The position numbers were made by a program, and so were the translations under genes. Below, piece after piece: positions 10,502 to 60,630 of a DNA stretch of 64,000 nt (positions are counted from its first letter, which is position 1; each line of letters starts with the position of its first letter). The stretch lies in the NCBI GenBank assembly GCA_029962745.1, contig CM057153.1:10230117-10294116 (forward strand), read 5' to 3'. A model generated the notes under the pieces. That model was not told the DNA's origin. It saw nothing but the letters and a program-made list of their open reading frames with translations, and ran no database searches. The DNA is from Echinometra lucunter. Its lineage: Eukaryota; Echinodermata; Echinoidea; Camarodonta; Echinometridae.

Positions 10502-10989
10502 TTAAAGTGATTACACAATGGTAAACAAAATTTTGATATATGATCGAGAATAGAATTCTAAGAAGAATGACATTAAAAATATGATGATTTTCAGTCGAAA
10601 TCAATGCATTTTGGCTAATTTTCTCATGAAATTTATGAGCTGACCAAAAATAATTGAGTATGAGGTATGACGTAAAAGTGGGTACCCAGCTTCGCGCATT
10701 GCAGTTGTGCTACGCGCTAGACTGTACAACATGTATTATACCTTGCGCGCATTTTGCTAGAAGTGCGCGACAAGGTACCCACTTTGACGTCATTTTGACG
10801 TCAAAGTGGGTACCCAGTTGAAACTGGGTCACAGCTGAGGGGTCAAAAATATCATGAAATCTTACCACATTTGGGGGTTTCCTTGGCAACACGACTTTTT
10901 AAAAAACTTTAGGCGGATGATTTTCTGCTAATAAAATCATGCTCTTTTAAATGAGTTGACATTGTTTCAGCATTGGGTACCCCCTTTGA
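10502..10989 (-). mobile_element. TTAA-flanked MITE with CRE palindrome, copy A
   Basis: One of four copies of a roughly 480-bp family; the others are at 39990-40480, 46541-47024 and 52737-53212. Ends are TTTAAAGTGATTACACAATG and, read inward from the other side, TTTAAAGGGGGTACCCAATG, matching at 16 of 20 positions. The target is TTAA on one side and a decayed TTGA on the other. A perfect 19-bp hairpin at 10774-10814 holds two TGACGTCA sites separated by three bases. Confidence 0.8.
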
Positions 10990-11375
10990 GGTTTCCTTTC
11001 TCTATAGGGCGCACTGTATCTACTGTTTTAAAAAATGGATTGTCCCAAGTCTACACTGTAGGCCCATTCGAGCTCAAAGTCAGATATACCAGAGTGGGGT
11101 GTTTCCCTCTAAAGCTGTTCGTAAGTTACGAACAACTTTACGAACGACTGGTGATACCTTCTTGGGTGCTAATCAGTTTCTCATTCATTTACATGTAGCA
11201 CAAGAAGGTATCACCAGTCGTGCGTAAAGTCGTTCGTAACTTACGAACAGCTTTATGAAACACCCCCAGTAACTGTTAATAAGACGTTATCAAAGATGAG
11301 AGAGAGAATGAGTCAAATGATGATACATATAGATAAAGCCAAATGTAAATTAGGCATTATGCATAGTTTACATTT
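10990..11375. repeat. segmental duplicate, unit 1, with hairpin
   Basis: About 390 bp that recurs at 11631-12019 with roughly 90% identity. Each unit contains a hairpin MITE (here 11096-11267) whose arms read GGGGTGTTTC...AAAGCTGTTCGTAAGTTACG. A diverged relative of the hairpin is at 58393-58718. Confidence 0.75.
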
Positions 11376-33300: not shown

Positions 33301-36300
33301 CATTTTAAACTACTTCACTATAGGGTTGAAGAAAAAGAAGGAGAGTATCTTGTCTCAGAAGCGCACTTCCAGTGTCACTGCCAAGCGATGGCCTGCCTCT
33401 TCACTGCCTTCTTCAGACCAGCACGACATCTTAGGTGTGTTACACTCACCCAGTATCAGCCACCTTATTCTTTTTAATTTGTTTTTATTTGATAATTGTC
33501 ATAGACCTTGTCCATATTGAATAATCGGGGAGTACTTGTACAGGTATGGTAGTCTAATTGGGTAGTTTTGTTGGCATCACTTTCAGTTTATGTGCACACC
33601 TCTCTGGATATTGTCATTCTTCACATTCATTATCACTGCTCCATTCTTAGTCTTCAGAGTGATTTCTGTTGCCTTCTGTCTTTTCTAATGATTGTATTTG
33701 ATTTGAATTTTCTTTATATTAACTTGATTTTCTACAGTAATACCTCCTACCCCAGAATCTATGCAGTTAAGTCCCAAGGAGTGTTCCCTTTCTCCACTCA
33801 AAGTCAACAAGCCAGATGTGGCTGATTCTTCATTCTCACAGACAGTTATTCCAGATACACCAGATAATGCATTACCAAAGAAGAGGCCTTTCACCAGTCT
33901 CCTGAACCACAGCAGGGATATCTCAGGTAGCACCCTCAAGCACAACAATGACAGCAAGGAGGATTTATCTAAAGAATTGAAATTTGGGAAAGAGGTTGGG
34001 AGACTGCCTGTACAGTTACTATGTGCTACTGATTCAGAAATACCAAAGATGAAGTTGAAAGACAAGGAAATTGATGAAAATTGCTTGAAAGTTGAAAAGA
34101 AGTTGGGTGCTTTTGGAGTAGAGAATGTAATTACTAGTGAGAAGAGGGATGTTCACCCAAGGCCAAACAACAAACTTAGCAGGCTCTCAAGAAAAGGGAA
34201 CAAGTTATGCAAGCTAGCAAAATCAAACAGTGTGGTTGCACCAAAATCTGCTAATGGAATTGAAAATGGAGGATCAAAGGCCAGAGAAATGGAAGAGCAG
34301 GGTACAGAGTGTCAAGAGAACAGGATAGAGCTAAAGCCAGCTGTGTGCAGGGTCAGAAACTCCTCTAGAAAGAATGCCCCAAAGTTGAGCCTGTCCAGGA
34401 AAGTCCAGAAGGACATGTTGGAGACCAGCATCAAAGCTGTCAAGAGATCACCAGTCAGAGGAAACTCCCCATACTCCAAGCGATTCCAAGATTCTGAAGA
34501 TACTCGAGATGAAAGCAACGATGGAATAGAGAGGGTTAAGAAATCTCTTCTGGATGAGTATGGCCGTGGAAAAGGTGTAACTAAAGAATTGCCTGTTGTT
34601 TCAACAAAGGTAGAAGGTCATGCAGCTGGTGTGACAGATCCTTTCAAACATGATGCAAAAGATACCGATATCATAGTGATTTCATCTGGAGAAAAGGTGG
34701 CAACTTGTGGAGATTTAGCTGACCGGATGTCAGGGTCGGATAAGTCGTTGTTTGGTAATGAGACATCCGTTTCTGGGCATGCAAGCTCCTTTGTTAAAGA
34801 TTCTGCCAGTAGTCTTCTATTATTGGATGAGGTCACCTCTCCAGAGCAACCAACAGCTCATGTTTCAAAGGAGGCAGGGGTACACAGAGATGTAAATGAG
34901 CTAGAGGAGTTTGTGTCTGTCATTCCAGATTCCTGTCCAACATCAAGCATAAAGCAACAGGATGTACTTGTCATTCCAGATACTTGCCCACTTGTAGAGG
35001 ACACTCCAGAAAAGACACAACATGATACTAGGTTTCAGTGCACCTCTAAGGCACTAGAGTTACCTATGCATAGAACTTTGGGAATTCCAGCTTCTCAGGA
35101 GTTAAAAGACAAAGTGCAATTTGATACATACACTGCCAATCATACTGAGAGTTCTTTATCTTTAGAACATCAAAGTATTCTACAAGATATGGGCAATGGG
35201 TTTGGAGCAAAAGGTGAGGTGGACAGATTAGGGAAACCTCAGCATGAATCCATTGAGAGCAATGCCACTGATGAAATAGCCTTGAGGAAATCCATTGACA
35301 GCAGCAGGTCGAAGCTTGTAGAAGACATAGATGATCAAACAATGGAAGAAACAGTGCCGCCAGGTGTTGAAGTTGATGTTGTGCAGGAAACTCCTTTAGT
35401 TATTCCTTCCAGTGACTACAGTAGTCCTGGAAAACATAAACATGGAATTGTGGATCACACAACCAATGTAAGCAGTCCTGGAACAGCTGCTCTTTTGGAA
35501 GGATTAGATGACTCATTCCTGGATGAAATCAACCTGGATGAACTGGATGGCATGCAAGATACATGTAGCAAGGTAAATCCTTCATTTAGATACCAAGGAC
35601 ATATCTTAAAGAGATGGAAAAGGAAACGGGAATGCATGTCCAGAGGAACAGTCTAACTAATTTATATTTTACATTTTTAGTCCAATTAATTTATACGTAT
35701 TTAATATGGTTTTTTTAAGTTTGAAACATCAAATAAAGTAAATTTCATAGAAATTAACAGTATATATTTACGGTGCTTGTTTTTATTTACTCACTATCCT
35801 CCACTTGTTTCCTTCTGTCTTCCAGATGAAAGGAAATCCCATTTCCAATGTTGAGAAGAAGTTCAGTCAGATGTCACCTTTTAAGATGAAACCTGAAGAA
35901 GGCAGCAAGCTTTTCAGTCACCCTCTTGCTGATCTTTGCAGATACCTTGTGACAGGTGTGCAGAACAGCAACAAGTAAGTGTATATGGGAAATTATTTGT
36001 GTTAGCAATGACATTTGTTGAATCATATCATTGATATACTACGGTTTTTCGTACAGGGAGTTGGTTGCCTGATTTTAAATCCTGTAGCTCTGCCAAGTTT
36101 TGTTACCCCTTCTACCTATGTCTTATTTTCAAAATGGCCAGTTTGGAAATATAGGATCTAAAGTAATGGTCAAGTAACACAATGGAATCACTTGTTAAGA
36201 TAAGAACGTGCTTGAGTATATGGGCTGGTCAATAAGGATTTTGCTTTCTGAAAATTTTACATTTTAAATTCTAGACTAAGTCCAGTCTCTGATTGGTTCT

Positions 36301-39396: not shown

Positions 39397-42300
39397 CGAT
39401 GACGATGATGGTGGTTGATGGTGATGATGATGATGCTGCTACTGCTGCTGATAGATAGTGATGATAATGATGGTGATAATCATTGGAAGTAATTCGCATC
39501 ATTCATTCAGTGCTCTAATTCCACAACCATATTTTAAGGAATGCAACTGCAGGCCTTCTCCAGTGATTTCAATATTTACTCCTCGCTGAAACAAATCAAG
39601 CTGTATTTCAGAATTAATTATCCCAATCCCATGCCCCTTCCTTGTTTCTATGCCCGCTAGAGATTGTTGATATTACCCATGCTGGACTAGGATATCTTAT
39701 TCCTTATATGATGAATCACCTGTTTGGAGCAAAAAGGGTGTTAATTCATATAAATATAATTCAACACAACACAACGAGTGTAGACTAGTCAGATAACATA
39801 TTTCTTTCTTTTTTCTATGTGTTTGTTCTTTTGTAGGCGATCTTGCACAATCAGTTTCAGAAAGCTGAACTGATGCAGATAGCAAGTGATGTTTTGAAGC
39901 AACCAGCATTTCTCTGTGACATGTAAGTACCTCTAAACACTTGTTCACGTATGAAGCAGCGAACCCCTTTGGTAAACCCCACGTTTGGTTTAAAGGGGGT
40001 ACCCAATGCTGAAACAATGTTAGTTCATTTAAAAGAGCATGATTTTATTAGCAGAAAATCATCTGCCTAAAGTTTTTTAAAAAGTCGTGTTGCCAAGGAA
40101 ACCCCCAAATGTGGTAAGATTTCAGGATATTTTTGACCCCTCAGGTGTGACACAGTTGAAACTGGGTACCCACTTTGACGTTAAAATGACGTCAAAGTGG
40201 GTATCTTGTCGCGCACTTCTAGCAAAATGCGCGCAAGGTATAATACATAGTGTACAGTCTAGTGTGCAGCACAACTGCAATGTGCGAAGCTGGGTACCCA
40301 CTTTGACATCATACCTCATACTCAAATTTTTTTGGCCAGCTCTTGATTTTTTATGAGAAAATTAGCCAAAATGCATTGATTTCGATTGAAAATCATCGTA
40401 TTTTTAATGTTATTCTTCTTGTAATTCTATTCTTGATCATATATCAATTTTTTTTTTTTACCATTGTGTAATCACTTTAATGCCTAAAGTGAATGGTACA
40501 TGAGGCAGTAGAAAAAATGAAGGCCTGGCAGCAAAAATGTGTGGACCAATCAAAGTCTTATAAAGTTAGCCAAAAAATATGATGTCACAGGTTTGCCTGC
40601 ATAATTTTTGGCAAGACTCTCTTTTATTTGAGCATCAAATACTATTGAAGCTTTAGTGCCCATCTTATCAAAATAAACCACGTGGGATGGGGTGTGCTGC
40701 TGGATATCTGAGCCATATTAAAGTACAAAACATGTCATTTTTTTAGCCATAAAAAAATCTGTGTTTGATAAAATGAGTTTTACCATTCTAGCTCTCAGCA
40801 GATGATTGCTTGATTCATTTAGTGATAGGATCTTGGTTATGTGAGACAAGGTCACTGTATGACCATTGTAATTGGTAATAATTTATTCAAACTCAGTAGA
40901 GCATTACATTAACCCTTTGATAACTAAATATGAATTTAGAAACTTAATTTTACTCCCCTAACATGTGAGTGTTCTACAGGTAAGCATGGAACTGCTATGG
41001 GTTGAATGATTACATTGGTTTTACTTGAAGTTACTCTATGAAGGTTGATGAGAGTAACCTGCTAGAGGAGGTTGAGGAGTATGTATTTGATTTGATTTGA
41101 TTTGAACTCATTACATTGGTTTGACTTGAAGGTACTCTTTGAAGGTTGATGAGAGTAACCTGCTGGAGGAGGTTGAGGAATACGCAGACACCATCAAGAG
41201 ATGGAGTGACATCTATCTAGGATCAGTACCTACAGGCAGTGTTGACATCAAATGGTGAGACTAACCTTAATGCTTTTTCGATAGACTTTGAAAATAATAG
41301 GTGAATTAGTGAGATCTAAGCAGTCTATGGCCTGAGCCAGAAGAGTGTTGATTGTATCTTCAACCTAACATGGAGTTTATGCCCTTCTGGCACTATGCCG
41401 ATGGTATGAATTAATTTAGATGTAAATCAGTTGACATATTAAAAAGCCTCATCATATATTATACAAATATACAATGACACTCGAGGATCTTGCTCAAACT
41501 ATTCGCATCGAAGGAACATCAAACGGTGCTATGCACCATAATGTTCCTGAGTGCGAATAGTTTGAGCTTGATCCAAGAATGAGTCATTGTTTATTTATTT
41601 CATATCCCTAATTGTTCCTCGGACACTCGTGTAATTACATGTACTCACATTCACATCACATTCAAGGAAATAATTAGCGAGAAGTGAAGGAAACAGCTCT
41701 GAATGACGTGCCCACAGTTCGAATATCTCTGCGAGTTGCATCGCATTCAGCATGATTACCGCGGCGCTACTGTAAGCACTAGTGCTAGCTAGCTGCATAG
41801 GTTGCCCGTGCCGCTCCATGAGGTAGGGTGCAGGTTGGCTCAGCATTGAGCTGAGCCGCTGCTGCTTGTCATTGGCAGGTCATCCGTGTCGTGAGGGGGG
41901 GGGGGAGAAAAAAAGTATAGTTCATTTTTCCCTAGGGAAAATGTGAACTATGCGTGACGTCAGCAACGAAAACTGAAATATACGGAGGAAATGTCTGTTC
42001 TGGTTAAAGCTATTCATTTCCTTGTTGCGTACATTGGTAATGCAACAATCTTACGATGAGGGATAAAAATAACATTAATCTTTGTCAGGAATTGTATAAA
42101 AAAAAAAAAAAGAAAGAAAAACAACTCACTGCGTTTTTTGTTTGTTTGTTTGTTTGTATAAAATAAATGGTAAGTAGGACAAAGGTGCTATACACCTACT
42201 CACTTACCTGTTTGTTACGACACAAAAATATGACGCTTAAAAAACGCTGCCTTTTCAGTGAAGCGCTTTACAGCACATGTAAACCAGCCTTAAAATAGTT

Positions 42301-43410
42301 GACAGATTTTCAGACATTGAGGCACGAAATTCACAAAGGAGGTTTAAACCATGGGCAAGGTTTAAGGCCTCTATGAGCGTACTATAATAAGTGTAAATAG
42401 GTGTATATAATGCCCATGCATGCGTTAAAAGTTACATGATCCTTAAAGTATGCTTAAAGAGGCATTATTGATGTGCTGAATTGTAAATATGTAAGGTAAA
42501 TGATTGATTGATTGATCCATTGAGCCATTGAGTCATGGGAATTTTCATTAGCAATGTTTAATCAAAAAGAAGAGGTTATGTAAGATAAAGTACATATTTT
42601 TTTGTTGAATTGAGTTTTTACAGACGTGTATCAATCAGATATGATTATTTACATCTGGGACCAAAGCACCCTTTTACGTCACCATCCGAAAGATGTGACT
42701 CAGACTCGAACCTGGGTCAGCTGAATCAGTTTATAACTTCCACTGTAAGTTGGATAAGGCGCATGCCACAACACCCAGCATATATCCATCACCAAACAGA
42801 ATCCTCTGCCCCGTTATCCAGATTAAGTGTAATTGATATGAGAGATATCATGGGATTTAATAAAAGCATGAAGTTTTGTCCTTTACAGAATGATGGAACT
42901 TGTTCTTCTATGCATTTTTGATGAATTATCCTCCTCTGTTTATGTACATATGATTAGGAAACTAAATTCAATTAATGACTTTCTTCATGTGTTCTCACAG
43001 GCCTGGTTCCTTGAAGCCTGAGAACTGTGGCCTGAGTGTGAGCAAGGTGACGGACATTGAGGAGACTATCTGGTCACCGAGATGGGGTGTCAAGGGCAAG
43101 GTTGACCTTACAGTCGAGGTCATGGTAAGGTCATGACCCTTCCCTCAAATCACAGAAAAAAGGAAGGGAACTCAGTGCATGCTCATGATTTAGAATAATT
43201 CCACTGCTCTGGCTTCTTGGGAGAAAAAATGTTGTTTACCTGTGGTCCAACTTGAGTGGAAGGTTGTTGCATACCAAGGTGTGTGCTACTGCATATAGAT
43301 CTCGAAAAAAGGAGCTGATGCTTAACCAAATTCTATCTTTGAAAAAGTTGGTCATACGTTTTTATGAGAGTTACAACCATGTTTATTGCTTTTGTAGCTC
43401 ATGCAGAGTT

Positions 43411-43444
<34 letters not shown>

Positions 43445-46400
43445 AAGTAGTAGTAGTAGTAGTAGAAGTAGTAGTAGTAGTAGTAGAAGTAGTAGTAGTA
43501 NNNNNNNNNNNNNNNNNNNNNNNNNNNNNNNNNNNNNNNNNNNNNNNNNNNNNNNNNNNNNNNNNNNNNNNNNNNNNNNNNNNNNNNNNNNNNNNNNNNN
43601 NNNNNNNNNNNNNNNNNNNNNNNNNNNNNNNNNNNNNNNNNNNNNNNNNNNNNNNNNNNNNNNNNNNNNNNNNNNNNNNNNNNNNNNNNNNNNNNNNNNN
43701 NNNNNNNNNNNNNNNNNNNNNNNNNNNNNNNNNNNNNNNNNNNNNNNNNNNNNNNNNNNNNNNNNNNNNNNNNNNNNNNNNNNNNNNNNNNNNNNNNNNN
43801 NNNNNNNNNNNNNNNNNNNNNNNNNNNNNNNNNNNNNNNNNNNNNNNNNNNNNNNNNNNNNNNNNNNNNNNNNNNNNNNNNNNNNNNNNNNNNNNNNNNN
43901 NNNNNNNNNNNNNNNNNNNNNNNNNNNNNNNNNNNNNNNNNNNNNNNNNNNNNNNNNNNNNNNNNNNNNNNNNNNNNNNNNNNNNNNNNNNNNNNNNNNN
44001 CTCTTGGTAATTTTATTGTCTTGCCAAATACCATCGTTCTTCTGTGCCATTACCAAATTTGTTATGCAATCCTGATTTCCACTATCTACAGAACTCATCC
44101 ACCTGCGAAACCAGCTGGCTTACTACCTCTCTCGTACAGCTAGGTCCACAACCACGCCCTCGGTCCCCTCCTCAGACGACTGGCCCTCCCAGACCAAACC
44201 CTCTTTGATCCCGCCTATCCTCCCTGATCCCATCCGAGATGACTTCACCTGTAAACGTTGTGCTCACCTGCAAGCATGCAGCAGCCTTCATAAGTAAGAC
44301 TAATTCCAGTATTTATGATGTGTGTTCCAGCGACAGTCGCTCCACATCAATTTTGTGAAATAATCATATCCTGAACTTCACTCTTGACCAAAAACTATGT
44401 CTATCCCCTACCCTGACCAAGTGCTTTCAATTTTTTTTTTCATTCTAATGTGAGTTTTCTACATTTTATTTTTGGAGGGGAAAGATCTGTTTTGATTGAA
44501 TTTGCTCTTTTTTCTTCAAAGGGTAAATATGCTTGTTATAAATCACTTACATCTATGACTTTATTGGAATGAACAATTTATTTTATTGGAGAGCCACATG
44601 GTGTGGTTTAGTCATTCCTGACAGAAAAATCTAATACATTTCATTTCTTTTTTCATCTTTCCTCTTTCTATCAGATTGGAAGGCTCCCCATCCCAGCTAT
44701 CTTCTTCTGTACAAGACCTCTTCAAAGAGAGCATTGAGCATTTACCGGACTCCCACCTCCAGTATTTTTCTCACTGGTATCTCCTGTGCTGCCTGGAGCA
44801 CGAGACTACACAGAAGAGGAATAACAGTAAAAACATCTGGTGCAAGGAGTCTACCGAAAGGTGGGAAAATGCACAACACTATCTGCCTGCGATTAGATTT
44901 TGCAAAAGAATGTTGTAGAATTGGATATGAACATTCAACCATGGAAAATCATACAGACCAAAGTTCTAAATAGTTGTATGAATACTAAAGTTGAAATTCC
45001 TGGCTATTGTGAGCCTCCTTGTAGGTATAAAAGTGAAGTCAGTTCCGAATCGTAATGATGTCATAGCAATCTTGCGATCGGCTATGATTTGAAATCGATT
45101 TGGCCTTTACTCCAACCGAAAGGCTGGTAGTAAACCAAAATATCTGTTGTAGCTTCCCATATTTATTCTGAACCGCGAATAGGATTATTTTACTTGTTTA
45201 AACTTTCATACTGAATACAAAATGCTATTTGTTCCCACACCTGGTCGTAGAAGGATCGTATAGTGTGTGGTGGTCTTTACATTGAATTTGGAGGAGGGGT
45301 GGAGGAAGAGGACATTGAAAGCTTGTTCGCAAGTACAGTGTTAAACTGCTTTTAAAAGAATGCGAGCATTTTTCTGTGTTAAAAGTGAATGCAAGTGATG
45401 TAACAAAGGTGTGCTGTTTGCAAACTAATGCATCTATGTGTTTCAAGAACTGGCAGGGTTTTTTGTAAAGGGATTTGGCCTATCTGAACAAGCTGTATAT
45501 CTTTAATCTTTAAACAGATGATTGGATAAAAGGGAAAATTTGATATTTCATTGGATGGCCAGAACAAAGGGAAATAGTGAGGATATTATAAAAGTTAAAT
45601 ATAAAATAGGTAGTGAGGAGAACATTGAGTTACTAGTATCTCTCTTACCTTTTAGCCCATAATGTTACAAGGGGTGAAAGATAATATGTAATTTAAGAAA
45701 GGTACAAAAAAAAACCAGCAGGAATTTTAAAAATTGAGCTTTTTGACCTTTCAACGTGTATTTTCAGTGCTTTGTGAGCAATAAGCTTTCAATATTAACT
45801 CCTGTCCTAAAAATTGTTGCAGAGAGAAAGATGGAGAGTGCTGGAGTAACATGGTGTTCATCAGTTCTACACACAAGGACCAACAGAGTGGGGGATACAC
45901 TTTGGTGTTCAGAAGAAAACAAGGAAAAGGAGGGTAGGATTTATGAGTATATCCATTATTTAGACCCTACTTTTGGACAAATTTTGACTGCTTTAAGGGG
46001 CATGCATGAAACTATAGCCCAAGGGTGACCTTGAAACTGCACTGTGCCCCAAGACAAAGATCACCAAGGGAGCACAGCTTTAATCGGGATCAAAAAACAT
46101 GAGCAGTTTTTATTGGTTTGATAAATCACATCCTGAAAGTGGATTCCTGAAAATTTTATTCTCCCAAAGTGGATATTTCAACAAAAAATGCCTTTTTCAA
46201 TGTTTTGTAGGGAAAATTTACCATTCTAAGATTAGTTCATGTGTCTCACCGCTTCTATCCATTGTTACATGTAACTTATGTAACTCCAAGCACCTACAAT
46301 AATTGCTTTGTATGCGCAAGTAGAGCTATGCCAGATCAATAAATTTTCACTATATTGCCCTGTAATGAATTTCATGCCTGCTGAATTGACCAATCAGACA

Positions 46401-49400
46401 TGCGGTACAAATTATTAGATATACAGTGTATGCTTGTATTCATGGGATAAAGACATGTAGTTTTTGTAGCGGCGGATGCAGGATTTTTCAGAAGGGGAGG
46501 CCGAAGTCTGCACAGGCACCCCGCATTTCTGAACAAGTCTTTAAAGGGGGTACCCAATGCTGAAACAATGTTAGTCCATTTAAAAGAGCATGATTTCATT
46601 AGCAGAAAATCATCTGTCTAAAGTTTTTTAAAAGTCCTGTTGCCAAGGAAACCCCCAAATGTAAGATTTCAGGATATTTTTGACCCCTCAGCTGTGACCC
46701 AGTTTCAACTGGGTACCCACTTTGACGTCATTTTGACGTCAAAGTGGGTACCTTGTCGCGCACTTCTAGCAAAATGTGCGCAAGGTATTATACATGTTGT
46801 ACAGTCTAGTGCGTAGCACAACTGCAATGCGCGAAGCTGGGTACCCACTTTTACGTCATACCTCATATTCAATTTTTTTTGGTCAGCTCATAACTTTTTA
46901 TGAGAAAATTATTCAAAATGCATTGATTTCGATTGAAAATCATCATATTTTTAATGTCATTCTTCTTAGAATTCTATTCTCGATCATATATCAAAATTTT
47001 GTTTACCATTGTGTAATCACTTCAATGATTTGAAAATAAAAAATCTTGAATGTTTGTTTGTTGTTTTTTTTTTCCAGGGGTACTGAAGCCAGCTTGGATA
47101 AATGCCATATGAGGGATGGAGACAGAGTGGTGATTAGTGAGGAAGGGAGCAGGAGAGTAGCAATCTGTGTAGGGGTCATTGAAGCAATCCATAAAACAAC
47201 TATCAAGATCAACTCAGACAGGTAGGTTAGTAGATTGATTGATAGATAGATGAAGGGTGGATGACATGGGAGTGGAATAATGGATAGATGGAATTGTGAT
47301 AGACTGAAGAAGGGAGTAGGAAGGTAGGTCAGTGGATTGATAGATAAATGAAGGTTGGATGAAAGAAGAGTGATTGATAGGTGGAGTTGTGATAGAGTGA
47401 TGAAGGGAGTAGGGAAGTAGGTCAGTGGATTGATAGATAGATGAAGGGTGGATGAATGAAGAGTGGAATGATTGATAGGTGGAGTAGTGATGAAGTGAAG
47501 AAGGAACTAGGTGAGTAGTTGATTGTGTAGGGGTCATTGAAGCAATCCATAAAACAACTATCAAATCAACTCAGACAGGTCGGTTAGTGGATTGATAGAT
47601 AGATGAAGGGTGGATGACATGGGAGTGGAATAATGGATAGATGGAGTTGTGATAGACTGAAGAAGGGAGTAGGAAGGTAGGTCAGTGGATTGATAGATAA
47701 ATGAAGGTTGGATGAAAGAAGAGTGATTGATAGGTGGAGTTGTGATAGACTGAATAAGGGAGTAGGGAGGTAGGTCAGTTGATTGATGGATAAATGAAGG
47801 TTGGATGAAAGAAGAGTGATTGATAGGTGGAGTTGTGATAGACTGAAGAAGGGAGTAGGGAGGTAGGTCAGTGGATTGATAGATAGATGAAGGGTGGATG
47901 AATGAAGAGTGGAATGATTGATAGGTGGAGTAGTGATGAAGTGAAAAAGGAACTAGGTGAGTAATTGATTGTGTAGGGGTCATTGAAGCAATCCATAAAA
48001 CAACTATCAAGATCAACTCAGACAGGTAGGTTAGCGGATTGATAGATAGATGAAGGATGGATGAAATAAGAGTGGAAGGACTGATAGATGGAGTTGTGAT
48101 AGGCTGAAGAAGGGAGTAAGGAGGTAGGTCAGTGGATTGATAGATGAATGGTGAATGAAAGAAGAGTGGAATGATTGATAGATAGAGTTGTGATGGACTG
48201 AAGAAGGGAGTAGGAGAGTAGCTGGCTGTGTTCGGTTCAGTGAATAAGTCAGTAAATTGGATATCAAGATCAACTCAGACAGGTAGGTTAGTGGATTGAT
48301 AGATAGATTAAGGGTAGATGAAAGAAGAGTGGAATGATTGATAGATAGAGTTGTGATAGACTGAAGAAGGGAGTGGGGGAGTAGCTGGCTGTGTTAGGTT
48401 CAGTGAATAAGTCAGTAAATTGAATATCAAGATCAACTCAGACAGGTAGGTTAGTGGATTAATAGATAGATTAAGGGTAGATGAAAGAAGAGTGGAATGA
48501 TTGATAGATAGAGCTGTGATAGAATGAAGAATAGAGTAGGAGAGTGACTGGCTTTGTTGGGTTCAGGGAAATAAGAAGTGAAGCAGATATCAAGGTCAGC
48601 TCAGGTTTAGGATGATGGATGGATTGATAGATGGATGAAGAGTAGATGAGAGAAGAGTAGAATGATTTATAAATGGAGTGATAATAGCATGGAGAAGGTG
48701 GATTGATAGCAAAGTCGCTAACGGTATCTGTTTAGGAGTCAATTGAGGTAATGATTAAAAAAGATATTAAGATTAACTCTGACGAGTTGGTTGAAAAGGG
48801 AAAGGATTGATAGATAGATGAAGTATAAATGAGAGAAGAGTAGAATGATGATAGATGGGTGATAGTACAGTGAAGGGGACAGGTTAATAGGGGAACAAAA
48901 TATGTTGAGGGGTCATTTAGGCAGCTATTAAAACAGATATGAAGATCAACTTTGACGCATGTGTTAAGAGGTGCTTAGATTCATAGTTAGATGAAGTATA
49001 GATAACACAACAGTGGACTGACGAAAGGGAGATGGTCTCTGAAGAATGGAGTACATGGCTAACCATCTTCTCGGACCAATGGGTTGCTTGTTGTATGGAT
49101 CACTGGATACATGTAAATGAAGAGTGGGCAAGGGGAGCGAAATCATAGATAGACAGAGTGGCAGTCATTCAGAGAAGGGATTAGCTGGTTTGTTCTTTAG
49201 GAGGGGGTAGGGGATATTATTAGGGGAGGGTGGGCAGAAGAAATAAGGCCATTATTGTCACATGCGTAACATACTGTGGGTACATGGACATTGCAGTTTT
49301 ATGGCAGAAAAATCTAATTACTAACTACAAATTAAAACACAATCATGTAGCTTCTATATTTTATATGAATATTTCTCTCTTTGACTTTCATACTCTAGTC

Positions 49401-52400
49401 AACTGAAAAAGGACGGTGGAAGAAAGCTGGTTTATCGGATCGATAAGGACGACAGCTACAACAGCATGGCAGCTAGTCTTGTCAACCTTACCAAGCTCAT
49501 GAAACCAGAACATACGAAGTAGGTGTACATCACCGTTATGTTAAAAGTGTAAACAACAGCACACGAAGAAAATACTGTCAAAATATTGTACAGATATATG
49601 CTAAAGAAATACATACATCTACAAGAAGAAGCAGAAGAAGGAGGAAGAGGAGGAGGAGTTGGAGGTCCATCTAGAAATGGTGTATTCTGAGGTGCACAAG
49701 AACAAAACAGAAGAGACGAGAGTCCAGATGAATATCCTTGTATGAAGTATTGTTCAAAACAGATAGGATTTCACCTTGGATATGAGGGTTTCTAAGGATG
49801 TTGTAATTCTCAACATCGTTGGTAGCATGATCTGTCTTTTATTCTACAATTGTTGAAACAAAATACAATATTTCCTTCTGTTTTTATCTTTTCTTCAACA
49901 TTTGCAGATTGCGTAACATTGTGATCGACAAGCAGCCTCCGACATCCATCCAGAAACCTAACCTCCCGTCCCGGGCAAGGGGTGAGGTGGCAGCCATCAT
50001 GAGAGGCTTGAACGAAGACCAAAGGGCAGCTGTCAAGGCCGTCCTTCGTAGCCAGGATTATACACTCATCATTGGCATGCCTGGTACAGGTAAGATGAAT
50101 TGAGAGGACTGATGTGGAAGTATCGCCCTGAACACTAAACCTAACCCTGAGTTTAAAATTTGTTTGCAACCATAATCTTAACCTTGTGCATACATCTTTG
50201 AGGATATACAGCCTGGAGCAAATGTTGGATCTAAAAAGATATTATCCCGTTGAATACTATGCCAGAGATAACTCGTTCTAGAGTCTATATGGAATATACT
50301 ACACAGACAAAATTTGGACAGCTGATGTGCTTCTGATACTGATTTCAATATTGACATGAATATTGAAAAATTTGAAATATATTTTTAAAAAAGATAGAAA
50401 AACAAAAATATGTAAAAAGTATCATAAAGGTTGCAGATGGAATGTCATATTGAATATGATTCAGAGGAGCCATGATATACAATGTGAAGTGTATGATAAA
50501 CAACCTCTCCTCCGAAAGTGCTTGTCATAATCTATCTTTAAAATTTTTGTTCAGGTAAAACCACAACCATTGTAGCCCTTGTGAGAATCCTTGTAGCATG
50601 TGGGATGTCTGTTCTTCTAACCAGTTACACTCATTCAGCAGTGGATAACATCCTACTCAAACTTACCAAGGTAAGTTTTGTAATCTGCATTCTTGCAATA
50701 AAACATGTATAAGACACATGCATCGCATGTCTTTCTGGGCATACTTGGTGCTCATGGTTGTATTTCTAAAGATAAACTGGAGTTCTAGTCATGCGATCAT
50801 AATGTGAAGTAATTGTTCCAAAGCAACTGGGAGAGTTAGATTAGTTGTATATAAACACAGGTTGAGATTTGGAGATTATTGAATTGATAAGAAATTCACT
50901 TACTGTCCCCAAAAAGTACTTGCATTGCACAAAGAAATGAGTATATGGGACCACACACAAATCTGGCATGAATGTTACCCCCAAACTGTTCAACTTCTTC
51001 CTGTCTTATTTTCATATCAGGGCATTTTAAGAGTGATCCTTTTTAGGGGACATTTTGCTATGATATTCTATGGAATCTTTTAGACAAAGAAATAAGAAAT
51101 TCGCCTGATGTAAAGACTTTCAAAGAAAATCTGGACCTGTTGGATATAGAGAATTTAGTTTCGAAAGCAAATTTCAAAATGTAGATATAGGCGTGTTTGG
51201 TGCTTGACAAAATCCTTGTCCTACATACGCGACAACCAGGCTGATGTTTGTACATTACGAACAGATATCAAAGAAATATACAGTGGAAACTCAGTATAGC
51301 GAGGTCCTTGGGACCATCAAAATTACCTTGTTATAGCAGGAATCTCGTTATATCAGGGTTAAAAAACAATAAAATATAAAAAGCTGGGACCAGAATATTA
51401 CCTTGTTATATCAGGAATATTGTTATATCAGATCTCTTTATACCGAGTTTCCATTGTACCAGGGAAGCAACTTTCAACTTGAAGCATTCATACATAGGAT
51501 TGTTTCTTTCCTGTGGGATATTTAGAAGATGGCTTCGACTGGTCAATGTCTTTGGTCGAAAAGTTTGAAAGAAAGAAGTAGTGTATATGCAACTTATTTT
51601 TCTTCCCAGTACAAGATTGATATCTTACGTCTCGGGGCACAGCACAGCATCCACCCTGAATTAAGAGAGTTCTCTGATACCAAGTTGATGAAGGAAGCAT
51701 CTGGTGTGTCACAGCTAGCAATACAGATGGAAAGAAAGGTATTAAATAATCAAAATTATATAACACCTGAATAGATCCCTGTCATTTGATTGGTTGTTTG
51801 ATATTGATCATTTGTCCCATTGCACTATGACGTCATCATTCGTGCAATTGTGGCTCCATTTACCGTGCAATCTTGGATCCATACGATTTGCTCCATTGCA
51901 CGAACGCCGAGAGCCCGGCACACTACGTACATAAAGCACTTGCGTTTGCAGTGTGCACCACGAACAGCGCGCTAGCGTATAGCACTGTTGATTTATTGCA
52001 ATTTGATCTATTTTAGGTGTCATATAAAACAAATAATGAATGTTTTTTTTCATTTGTGCAATGGACAGAATATTTCATTCGGTGATAGATGAAATTATTT
52101 TTCCATTCAACGAGGCTAATCATTTCATCTTTCACCTCATGAAATATTCTGTCCATTGCACTCATAAACATTCATTATTTGTATACTGAATTAGTTTTGC
52201 AAATGGATGTGTAGAATCATGCTCATTTGTTGTAAAGATTCGTCCATTTTTGGTTGAATATTTTTATGTGCACATTTAAAAACACTGCATTGTGTAAAGG
52301 TATCAAAATAAAAGTTCAGAGGTAAAATGGTTTGATAGAAAGGGATAAAGATTCAATGGCAGAACCGGTTTAAATCGGGTCACTACGTACTAACATTTCT

Positions 52401-55400
52401 AGATGATACCATGGTTTATTATCTATGAATATTGAAAGTTTGATGATAATTTCCTTTACGTTAAGGATATTATTTCTACTGAAAGAATTAATCACAGTAT
52501 TAAGTTAAAGGGTTGATTAATGGTATATCATTGCAATCTTCACAGAGAATGGTTGCCACTACTAGCTTGCATATGAAGCATGCTTTCTTTCTGACTCATC
52601 ATAGCTTAGATGTTTGTATTGTATTTGAGGCATGTCAGATCAGTCCACCAGTCTGTTTAGGTCCACTCTTTAATTTCAACATTTTTCCTACAGAAACTGG
52701 GTGTGCACTGTATTAAACCTATTGGAGATTCAGTAGTTAAAGTGATTACACAATGGTTAAAATTTTTTTGATGTATGATTGAGAATGGAATTCTGAGAAC
52801 AATAACATTAAAAATTTGATGATTTTCAATCAAAATCAATGCATTTTGGCAAATTATTTGTGATTAGTCAAGGTTTGACCTAAACATTTGAGTATAATGA
52901 ATGGCGTAGATGTGGTTACCCAGCTTCGCGCATTGCAGTTGTGGCACGCGCTAGACTGTACAATATGTATTATACCTTGCACGCATTTTGCTAGAATTGC
53001 ATGACAAGGTAACCACAATGACGTCATTGTGGGTACCCAATCGAAGCTGGGACACAGCTGAGGGGCCAAAAATAGGCTGAAATCTTACCATATTTTGGGT
53101 TTTTTGTTGGCAACACGACTTTTTTTAAACTTTAGGCAGATGATTTTCGGTTGATAAAATCATGCTCTTTTAAAAGAAGGAGCATTGTTTCAGCATTGAG
53201 TACCCCCGTTAAGGGGTTAATTAATTGAATGTGTTTCATCTCATTACACTCTTCATAGAGAGTGGTTGCAACAACAAGTCTTGGATATGAATCATGCTTG
53301 ATTCACCCATCATGGCTTTGATGTGTGTATCCTACATGTAGATGACAAATCCCAGATCATTCAGCCAGTCTGTTTAGAACCACTCACCAATTGTAACCTA
53401 TTTCCTACAGTATGCCATGTATTAAGCCTATGAGAATAAGAAAAGGTGTAGTCAAAGGGTTATTTTTTTTTCCCCATCTCGTTTCCCTCCTCACAGAAAG
53501 TTGTTGCTACAACAAGCTTAGGTATGAAGCATGCTCTCTTCACCCGTCATAGCTTTGACGTGTGTATCGTGGACGAGGCATCCCAGATCAGCCAGCCAGT
53601 CTGTCTGGGTCCTCTCTTCTCTGCTTCTAAGTTTGTTCTGGTGGGAGATCAGTGCCAGCTACCACCTTTGGTCCAGAGTTCTAGAGCAAGGTAAATGACC
53701 TTTGTGATGTCTTCTTGATAAAGCTATTGGTGCCACCAATGTTACAAACATGTTTGTTTTTTTTAAAGCTGTTCACGAGTTCCATTTGTCATTATGGTGA
53801 CATATTTGAATTATCCTATTCAAGAATTGTTCCATTACAAAGAATTTTACAATTCATGAACCTATTATCAATATCAAAGAAGAAAATCAGCTTTCCTTGT
53901 GCAAAATTGTCTAATCAGTATCAAAACTTGGGCAGATTAAACTGTTCCTGGCTGTGCAATGTTTAGCTGTACTTTGTCAAGATTTTCCCAATGAGCATTG
54001 TTTAGACAATTTATGAGACAGTTCTGTATAATTAGCCCATTTGATAAGATTTGATCATGGTATAGTACACATTTTCCAAGATTCCAGACCAAACTGTTTG
54101 GGCCTAGTACTCCCAAGTGGGGGAATCACCGGTACTACCATTGTCAAAATGCTGCTTAGTTGCTTTTTTTAGTGGTTTTTAGTTTACCTGTCGTTATTTC
54201 CTCAAAAAAGTCTTGAAATGCAAAGTCAGTTGGACATTTATTATAGTTATTTGGTAATGCTAACATTTGATTACTGTTATTTAAAATCATGGGATTTTTT
54301 TTGTTAATCTTTCCAACTCTCTTACCCCAGAGATTTGGGTATGGATGAGAGCCTGTTTCAGAGACTGGTGTCAGCTCACAACTCAAGTGCTATGAGGCTT
54401 AGTCTCCAATTCAGAATGAACAGGGAGATCATGTCTATTTCCAATCACATGGTGTATGATGGAGCTATGAGATGTGGTAATGATGCAGTTGCCAAGGCAA
54501 CCATCTCGTTGCCTCACTGGGATGAATGGTGTAAGGTAAGAGATAGATAGTTTGATCTCCGTAGTGATGAGATATGAGCAGTAGCTTTTTTTCAGTGAAT
54601 GCTTGGGTAGCAGAAGAAATACAGACATACAAATGTACTTATGAGGTAAATAAAAATGTAAACAAATTGGAAATATCCCCAAGCTTATGAAATAAAGCAA
54701 TAAACATCCCATGAATTAGCTTTATTTCAAATGCTCGTTATGGCTCCATCACCATGGTGTTTGAGGTATTATTTTGTCCGTCTGCCTGTTTGCTCATACT
54801 CAGTTCCTTCATCCATCCGTAACCTTCTTTGTTAGTGTGAGAACCATTAAACTGACCATTAAAAAGCTTTTAACCAAACTCAAATTAGTATTAAGAAGTC
54901 TAAAGTTGTAGATCAAAAAATTGTTTTAAGAGAAAAGAACTGGTAGGTAGATTCAATTAATCTAAGCATAGTTGTCCTTCCCCAACACCAATCTTGACGT
55001 GTAAAGTTTTCTCTCTTGTGTACTCCTAGTCTTTAGATGCATTGAATCCTAGTCCTCTGTGTCTTTTCTGAACCCTGTCACTTTGTTTCTTCTCATCCTC
55101 TTGTCTTTGTCCAGGAATCCCAATCAGATGCCTGGTTGGTAGATGCAGTAAATCCAAGCACAGTGGTGTCCTTTCTCAACACAGATCAGGCCTGTGGTCC
55201 GACTGATGAAGCTTCTTCCCAAAGCAACACCAACATGCTTGAAGCACTTCTGGTCAGGAGAATCATAGAGAGCCTTATGCATGTAAGTCAACGTCATTCC
55301 TCTTATTATTTTTTTTCTTCCTAGATTACATTACGAAAACTCAGCTATTGTGAGGTAATTTTTGTTTTACAGGTGGAACATGGTTGTCTGTGTCATAGGC

Positions 55401-58392: not shown

Positions 58393-58718
58393 GGGGGGTG
58401 TTCCATAAAGCTGTTTGTAAAGTTACGCATGACTTTAGGAACAACTTAAATATGAAGTTCCAAGATGGATGCCCAAAGTTATTTCTTTAGTTTACCAAAG
58501 TGTGACTGCAATTCCCATAATCTCAATTAAATTGTGGTAAAAAATATACTTTGTAATAAAAATGTTTGTAAACAATAGGAATGTCAATTGACGTCTGCAT
58601 TTCACCTTTAGCTGATGCGATTTGTAATGATTGAGAATCCCATTTGGCTTGCCATACTCAAAAGTCGTTTTGTAAAAACATTCACAACTTTATGAACAGC
58701 TTCATGAAACACCCCCCG
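58393..58718. mobile_element. diverged hairpin MITE
   Basis: Ends GGGGGGTGTTCCATAAAGCTG and CAGCTTCATGAAACACCCCCC. Same family as the hairpins at 11096-11267 and 11746-11910, but more diverged inside. Confidence 0.7.
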
Positions 58719-60630
58719 GGTGATCCTTGCATTAAGCCTACGGGAATAGGAGAATTTAGTAGCCAATGGGTTAACCAGTAAAACACCTTGAGTGAACTTA
58801 TCATTAAGTGTTTACGATGTTAACATCATCTATCCAATCATCTTTTCTGTGCATGTGTATTCCCGAAGAGGACTCGAAACCGAGAGATATGAATTCCAGT
58901 ATCAACTCTCTAGCAGCATAGTGTTTTACATCTTATGAATAAATATTTCCCTTATAAAAATTTCTTTATGATGTAATCACTTATTGTTTGTGTTTATATA
59001 TCTTGCTGTTGTTTTTTTTTTCTTTTGAAAAAAAAAATCTCTTTTTTGGTATTATAATTTCTAAAATGTTTGTTTCATAATTGTATTACGATGTTGTGGC
59101 TCCAAAGTAAATTCATTGGATGAAGTTGTGACTTTAATACTGTTTTAATGTTAATACTTCCATTATATTATACAACTGTATGTTGTACGTGCAAACTCAT
59201 TATCTCTCACAGTATTCCTTCGCGGACAGGGTTAAAGGTTTTAATTGTTTCGATTAACAGATTTCATTTACTTATGTGCAAAAATGCCCAATTTGGATTG
59301 TCTTGAGGCCAACCAAATGCAATACAAGTATGTTTCAATATTCAAGAGAATTCTCAAACATCACCTAATTTTCCCTTTCCTTTTAGACAGGTAGCCTTCC
59401 TATCGAAAGGGTTTCCTTAGGAGGCATGATATTCTTATTTCCTAGTATTCCAAGTCTCAAGACTAAGAAGAGATCAATTTTAAAGACTCATGTATACCAT
59501 GTTATGTGTAAATTTTGAAAAGAGTTTAGCTTCATTTATCTTTTACAGTAGACAGAAGCACTCATATTTAAAGTTTCATCATGTTATCACTGATGGAGTT
59601 AATGATATCTAATTAACTAATAAAAAAAATGCATATTAAACAAAAATTATTGAATGAGTGTAAAGGTTAGCCAGAATTGGAGTTATATTTATTGAGAGAT
59701 GAAAAGGGGGTGAAAGGGAATTATCTATTTACACAAAGTGAATGAGATAAAATAATCTGCTTTTGTATGTTACAGTATTCATGACAAAAAGAGTGGTAAA
59801 ATACAGACAGTGTATAATGTTCATAATGAAGTAAAGGGAAAAATACATGTATGCCAGACTGCCAATGAAAATTACCATGCTTATTTCTGTTTTATCTCTT
59901 TAATCATGGAGGTATGCTGTTAAAAATTGATTTAATTACAAACAAAAGAAATATTAAAAAGTCAAAGAGAATGAAAAACTATAAAGTAGTAAATATCACA
60001 ATGATATCGGAACAGAATATGATGCTTTTCATGTGGACAACTTCTACAAAGCTGTTATCTACACTCTGCTGTGCACATATTTGATAAGAGTTACTGATGT
60101 TTGCAAACAAATTCTAATTCACAATCACATACATGTAGCTATGCAACCTTGGCAATAGGGATAATTTTGTCCCCTTTTTGCATTTTTATTCCTTTCTAAG
60201 AATGTGAAGGCTTTGGTGCCCTCCATGAATATATGTATACTTTGTCATCTAACATACCAGTACCTGTAGAAAGTAATTTGACAAATGATCTGATGTGAGA
60301 GCAAATAAAAGCATGTGTGCTTTGAAATAAAAGTTCTGACATTATGTACTTTTTATCTGTGAAACTAGTTGTTCATGATATAATGAAATAACTCATGACC
60401 TGCTGTCATCAATTTGAATTGAAAAACCTATTGATAAACTCTCAAGGAGAATCCTAGACAGCATTTTGAAACAGAAAATATAATAGAGTTTTGTAGAGTT
60501 GAGATGGGGGTCGAATATACAGTTGCAGGATATTGGACAAAATATTGATTTTTCCAGATGTAAAGTTTTAAAGAATTTTTATTCTTCAACAGTGATCATT
60601 ACATAATGATGTTCAGCCGTGTGTGTGATA
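58719..60630. other. intergenic, nothing recognised
   Basis: AT-rich sequence. The block GCATTAAGCCTACGGGAATAGG (58733 onward) resembles ATTAAGCCTATGAGAATAAG at 53422 in DNA2 intron 21, which suggests a minor dispersed repeat. No exon-like frame was found. Confidence 0.4.

Follow-up and report, generated by a model that had tools for sequence, protein, structure and literature searches.

Partial tandem copies of the motif II exon in a DNA2 gene of Echinometra lucunter

In the window, the whole stretch of 64,000 nucleotides of Echinometra lucunter DNA that we analysed, the DNA2 exon encoding motif II is preceded by two decayed tandem copies of its front part, each with a copy of the intron end and acceptor. 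We regard the array formed by these copies and the true exon as very probably the neutral debris of a tandem duplication of a known kind. The initial annotation described three units of about 240 bp, two of them dead, and our analysis supports this description. It also took the whole exon, with both of its motifs, to have been triplicated; on this point it needs correction, as only the front part of the exon, up to the codons for PVCLGPLF, is detectable in the copies.

Results

The host gene and the layout of the array

We used the true exon to search for relatives among solved structures. The best matches in the PDB are the Dna2 chains 5eax, 5eaw and 5ean (E 2.2e-23), followed by UPF1 (1.8e-6), and on this similarity the exon is assigned to DNA2, matching Dna2 above other SF1 helicases. 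A tblastn search with human DNA2 as the query placed DNA2-like stretches between 37056 and 56911. In the same search, no convincing counterpart was found for the nuclease stretch around PLELKTGK, which is expected between the matches at 43127 and 44091. A gap of 500 Ns, the sole run of Ns in the window, occupies 43501-44000, and because of this gap and the missing counterpart, a DNA2 exon is probably absent from the assembly. The intron that holds the array also contains a near-palindromic 154-bp segment (52029-52182), which matches its own minus strand at 78% and may be a further small element of the hairpin type. Elsewhere in the window, the open reading frame at 33728-35656 has one relative, P0001, which is 59% identical over 95%.

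The three exon-derived segments each start directly after an acceptor (Table 1). The distance between acceptors is 713 bp from copy 1 to copy 2 and 238 bp from copy 2 to the true exon, and the first interval shrinks to 241 bp once 472 bp (a transposable element together with one TTAA) are taken out; these spacings reproduce the annotated ones exactly. In local alignments of the exon fronts, copies 1 and 2 agree at 95 of 130 positions, copy 1 and the exon at 88 of 117, and copy 2 and the exon at 95 of 125, scores that in each case were reached by 0 of 2,000 dinucleotide shuffles. The flanking intron is also similar over its last 43-51 nt including the acceptor, in alignments beginning at 52503, 53208 and 53450, such that the three segments align across both exon and intron. 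The copies are direct, lie in the same gene and the same orientation as the exon, and resemble it beyond chance.

Table 1. Features of the array and related sequences in the window
Feature	Position	Strand	Basis
DNA2 exon preceding the array, donor at 51739	51610..51738	+	tblastn with human DNA2; AG/GT borders
Unit 1 leader, a copied intron end with acceptor TTCACAG	52503..52545	+	Alignments
Copy 1, matching the exon front; Walker B Asp lost (VFEACQ); frame runs open until a stop at 52714-52716	52546..52670	+	Alignments, shuffles, reading frame
Unit 1 tail, common to unit 2 and absent from the exon	52671..52736	+	Alignments
TTAA-bounded MITE of 476 bp at the unit 1/unit 2 junction	52737..53212	.	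Three more copies in the window
Unit 2 leader, acceptor TTCATAG; first bases TTAA shared with the element target site	53213..53258	+	Alignments
Copy 2, matching the exon front; frameshifted by +1, with a 6-nt insertion; reaches a stop after 20 codons	53259..53385	+	Alignments, reading frame
Unit 2 tail	53386..53451	+	Alignments
Intron end preceding the true exon, acceptor CTCACAG	53452..53496	+	Sequence, alignments
True DNA2 exon (DEAS and GDQCQLPPL), 194 nt, donor AAG/GTAAAT at 53691	53497..53690	+	PDB Dna2 match, donor 8/9, length
Sequence resembling tail and leader start, probably a dispersed repeat end	58715..58774	+	nhmmer, two-tail profile, E 2e-8

The copies contain the front of the exon only

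Similarity to the exon ends at 53616-53618, and the copies match only the first 120-122 of its 194 nt. The alignments show no trace, in either copy, of the half that carries motif III (GDQCQLPPL) or of the donor. When the sequences following the break were compared with the 3' half of the exon, global scores were equalled or exceeded by 660 (copy 1 tail) and 1,281 (copy 2 tail) of 2,000 shuffles and local scores by 775 and 1,998 of 2,000. Anchored extension scored 1.0 for the copy 1 tail, a value matched by 148 of 300 shuffles, and 0 for the copy 2 tail, matched by all 300. Duplication of the full exon was rejected on these chance-level figures.

Both copies lose their similarity to the exon at one common point. 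Beyond it each has a tail of about 66 nt, and the two tails resemble one another, agreeing locally at 42 of 62 positions with 0 of 2,000 shuffles as good. An nhmmer search of the window with a profile of the two tails found one further place (Table 1), where the match extends past the tail and into the start of the next unit's leader. Judged by this match, the place is probably the end of a dispersed repeat, and the tail looks like old intron. Because tail and leader recur there together, the passage from tail to leader would have been contiguous before the duplication, and the passage from exon to tail would be the new junction. The duplicated unit probably ran from the end of the intron through the first two thirds of the exon, and it is likely that the copies have been partial from birth.

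This reading is weakest upstream of unit 1, where a counterpart of the tail would be expected but is faint or invisible. In alignments with cheap gaps, tests that included the leader were inflated by it, and we use only the leader-free figures: 19 of 3,000 shuffles did as well against tail 1 and 1,078 of 3,000 against tail 2. In anchored extension the corresponding counts were 203 and 37 of 300, local tests ranged from 21 to 1,638 of 2,000, and nhmmer found no match upstream of unit 1. Our guess is that most of this counterpart was lost by deletion in unit 1. An unclear ancestral tail would, however, also be predicted if whole exons had been duplicated. In that history the two copies would later have lost the motif III half and donor, or the tail would have taken the place of these parts before the duplication that made the third unit; a repeat period of about 240 bp is also compatible with an exon plus a short intron. 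We nevertheless consider this history unlikely, because the 3' half of the exon has left no trace in either tail although the fronts retain 73-76% identity, and because a match to the tail occurs at an unrelated location in the window.

A TTAA-bounded element entered the first junction

The element between copies 1 and 2 carries TTAA at both ends (52737-52740 and 53209-53212). Three relatives lie elsewhere in the window, at 10502-10991 on the plus strand and at 39990-40480 and 46541-47025 on the minus strand, with 80-82% identity, and the annotated 476-bp TTAA element is real. A putative terminal inverted repeat is imperfect, matching at 13 of 17 positions in a hand count on the M_10k alignment for one of the four copies. 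In its TTAA ends here and its four copies in 64 kb, and perhaps in its putative inverted repeat, the element resembles non-autonomous DNA transposons (MITEs) that target TTAA; it differs in that some ends of the other copies in the window are degenerate and read TTGA or TTTGAG. The TTAA target is linked to piggyBac-like elements.

If the two flanks of the element are joined, they can be aligned with the junction before the true exon, which holds no element, and no gap falls at the join. This gap-free match indicates that the element inserted after the units existed, in support of the annotated order of events; had the element been present before the third unit arose, both junctions would be expected to carry it. 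We also tried to order the events by a neutral clock. Measured against the majority of its three relatives, the array element shows a divergence of 0.162; the relatives, each measured against its own majority, show 0.036-0.058. The divergence between units is 0.276, which corresponds to about 0.138 for each lineage. With 0.162 for the element and about 0.138 for each unit, the clock does not order insertion and duplication and was set aside as uninformative, leaving the flank match as the basis for the order.

The copies are decayed and lack a usable donor

The lesions annotated in the copies were confirmed. Copy 1 contains a 3-nt insertion that keeps the frame, and it reads VFEACQ where the exon reads VDEASQ, the catalytic Asp having been lost; copy 2 contains a +1 shift and a 6-nt insertion. 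Both copies retain acceptor-like AGs, as had been claimed (TTCACAG in copy 1, TTCATAG in copy 2), preceded by pyrimidines at 13 of 22 positions in copy 1 and 17 of 22 in copy 2, compared with 19 of 22 in the true exon. The best donor-like sites in the copies match 6 of 9 consensus positions, against 8 of 9 for the true donor. Splicing from 51739 into a copied acceptor is predicted to meet a stop after 56 codons (copy 1) or 20 codons (copy 2), so that a truncated protein or a decayed message would be expected. The proposal that mis-splicing could yield an inactive helicase is thus not borne out: with these early stops and donor-like sites of at most 6/9, no full-length dead helicase is predicted.

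We assessed past constraint from the changes private to each segment. Those of copy 1 fall on the three codon positions 3, 3 and 9 times, and 8 of the 15 are synonymous (expected fraction 0.258, p 0.02); those of copy 2 are distributed 2, 4 and 4 (2 of 10 synonymous) and those of the true exon 2, 3 and 8 (9 of 13 synonymous). In copy 1 the synonymous bias hints weakly at past constraint, but if this copy split off first its private counts also absorb changes in the exon lineage. Among simulated neutral copies of 40 codons with 15-29 substitutions and no indels, 53-71% were stop-free. As the signal is weak and simulated neutral copies often stay open, we did not retain constraint on copy 1. For the copy 1 frame, no candidate relative was found among about 5.8 billion proteins, in a search that needs three shared 5-residue words and therefore provides weak evidence.

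A second DNA2 exon in the window has partial copies

We extended the comparison to 15 DNA2 exon segments, and partial tandem copies were present at two of them, the motif II exon and the exon ending at 47221. The 3' part of the latter is matched by five downstream stretches (47482-47596, 47928-48043, 48180-48300, 48343-48463 and 48899-48951), four of which keep the donor CAG/GT, and the copy at 47972 agrees at 63 of 64 positions over the exon end and donor. Exon and copies lie within 47078-48956, the copies inside a minisatellite-like array in the next intron. The copies that precede the motif II exon are acceptor-side copies and those that follow the exon ending at 47221 are donor-side copies. 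Thus, with copies at two exons, partial exon duplication is not special to one exon of the DNA2 gene.

A parallel partial triplication in another organism

Searching a protein collection with the exon frame gave 162 relatives, of which 120 were listed, with candidates restricted to 44-140 residues. One of these 120, P0002 (138 aa, from another organism), contains three exon-like units. Two are partial, ending after NEVSRV and DEASQV, and a full unit follows; the partial units run into sequence that ends in YSMLQ and resembles read-through intron, and in the first unit NEVS stands in place of the DEAS of the full unit. In a phmmer search of 121 proteins, the best E-values of the P0002 stretches were 2.2e-17, 2.6e-10 and 0.00097. 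Units 2 and 3 share 28 of 31 residues. The full unit shares 20 of 31 residues with the exon in the window and 15 of 32 with copy 1, and copy 1 shares 24 of 32 with its own exon. Given these identities and the different break point, the partial triplication in P0002 is apparently independent of the array in the window.

The phmmer search also returned weak second stretches in P0004, P0030, P0094 and P0106 (E 1.6-9.6), which we took to be chance or one split exon, and a second DEAS-like motif at the end of P0043 was taken as chance. BLASTP gave multiple matches for none of the 121 proteins, P0002 included; having missed this triplication, the BLASTP repeat check is insensitive. A combined reading, in which partial tandem duplication strikes the front of the DNA2 motif II exon recurrently in animals and the extra acceptors are kept or tolerated because they tune DNA2 output through decayed messages, seems highly improbable.

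Discussion

Origin of the array

The following sequence of events would account for the array. First, about 240 bp of sequence would have undergone a head-to-tail duplication; this stretch would have held the last ~110 nt of the intron, in which part of an older repeat lay, and ~124 nt from the start of the exon. A further exchange, this time unequal, would then have added a third unit with an identical junction. The last unit alone continues into the rest of the exon and the donor, and for this reason only the last unit is expected to be in use. The two upstream copies, being donor-less, would have decayed, and a TTAA-targeting MITE would later have inserted at a TTAA in the junction between units 1 and 2. 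We infer both the exchange mechanism and the absence of function.

The retained acceptors could instead serve as decoys, such that part of the transcripts is spliced into copy 1 or copy 2 and, because of an early stop, broken down, tuning DNA2 output. The kept AGs and pyrimidine tracts are consistent with such a role, as are the open frame of copy 1 and its weak synonymous bias. However, the tract richest in pyrimidines is that of the true acceptor, and no relatives of copy 1 were found in the protein search, within the limits of its three-word requirement; we consider decoys very unlikely. The open frame and the bias would also suit a copy 1 that is, or once was, an alternative (mutually exclusive) exon, yielding a DNA2 isoform whose Walker B motif is altered. 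This copy, however, has neither a donor nor the motif III half, its catalytic Asp is replaced, and the true exon is 194 nt long, so that adding or dropping it shifts the frame, which leaves the probability of an alternative exon close to nil. An assembly artefact, arising from collapsed or misjoined haplotypes, might be suspected from the N gap 9 kb from the array, but the segments differ by about a quarter, which would be far above haplotype differences, and there is no N near the array; an artefact is therefore scarcely credible. Neutral debris of a tandem duplication is the reading that we carry forward.

Relation to known exon duplications

Tandem exon duplication affects about 10% of animal genes, according to a 2002 study cited in PMC9013439. 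Like such cases, the array consists of head-to-tail exon copies that adjoin the exon in the same gene and include flanking intron; unlike them, the copies here are partial (front and acceptor), dead and two in number. No complete copy of the exon is detectable, given where the similarity ends, and we class the case as a partial exon duplication. PMC9741552 concerns functional substitution exons. The array shares with such mutually exclusive tandem exons the presence of homologous exon sequence side by side, but it contains no complete second exon or donor, copy 1 has lost a catalytic residue and copy 2 is frameshifted, so that neither copy combines an acceptor, a donor and a compatible frame. 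PMC2891723 describes novel intron positions created when coding sequence is duplicated in tandem. There too a short duplication includes coding sequence and a copy is left within an intron, whereas here an existing intron grows and no new intron position is created. Exon duplication in DNA2 was not found in the open-access literature, in titles and abstract openings among the matches listed. The array is an ordinary, decayed and partial case of a known type of duplication.

As such, it clearly records, in fossil form, a short tandem duplication that spanned an intron-exon border, and it places this duplication in order with the insertion of a transposon. It carries a warning for annotation, as copy 1, with its open frame, may be predicted as an exon by gene-finding programs. 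It suggests that exon copies can be born partial, and with the parallel array in P0002 it becomes testable whether duplication affects the DNA2 motif II exon more often than other exons across animals.
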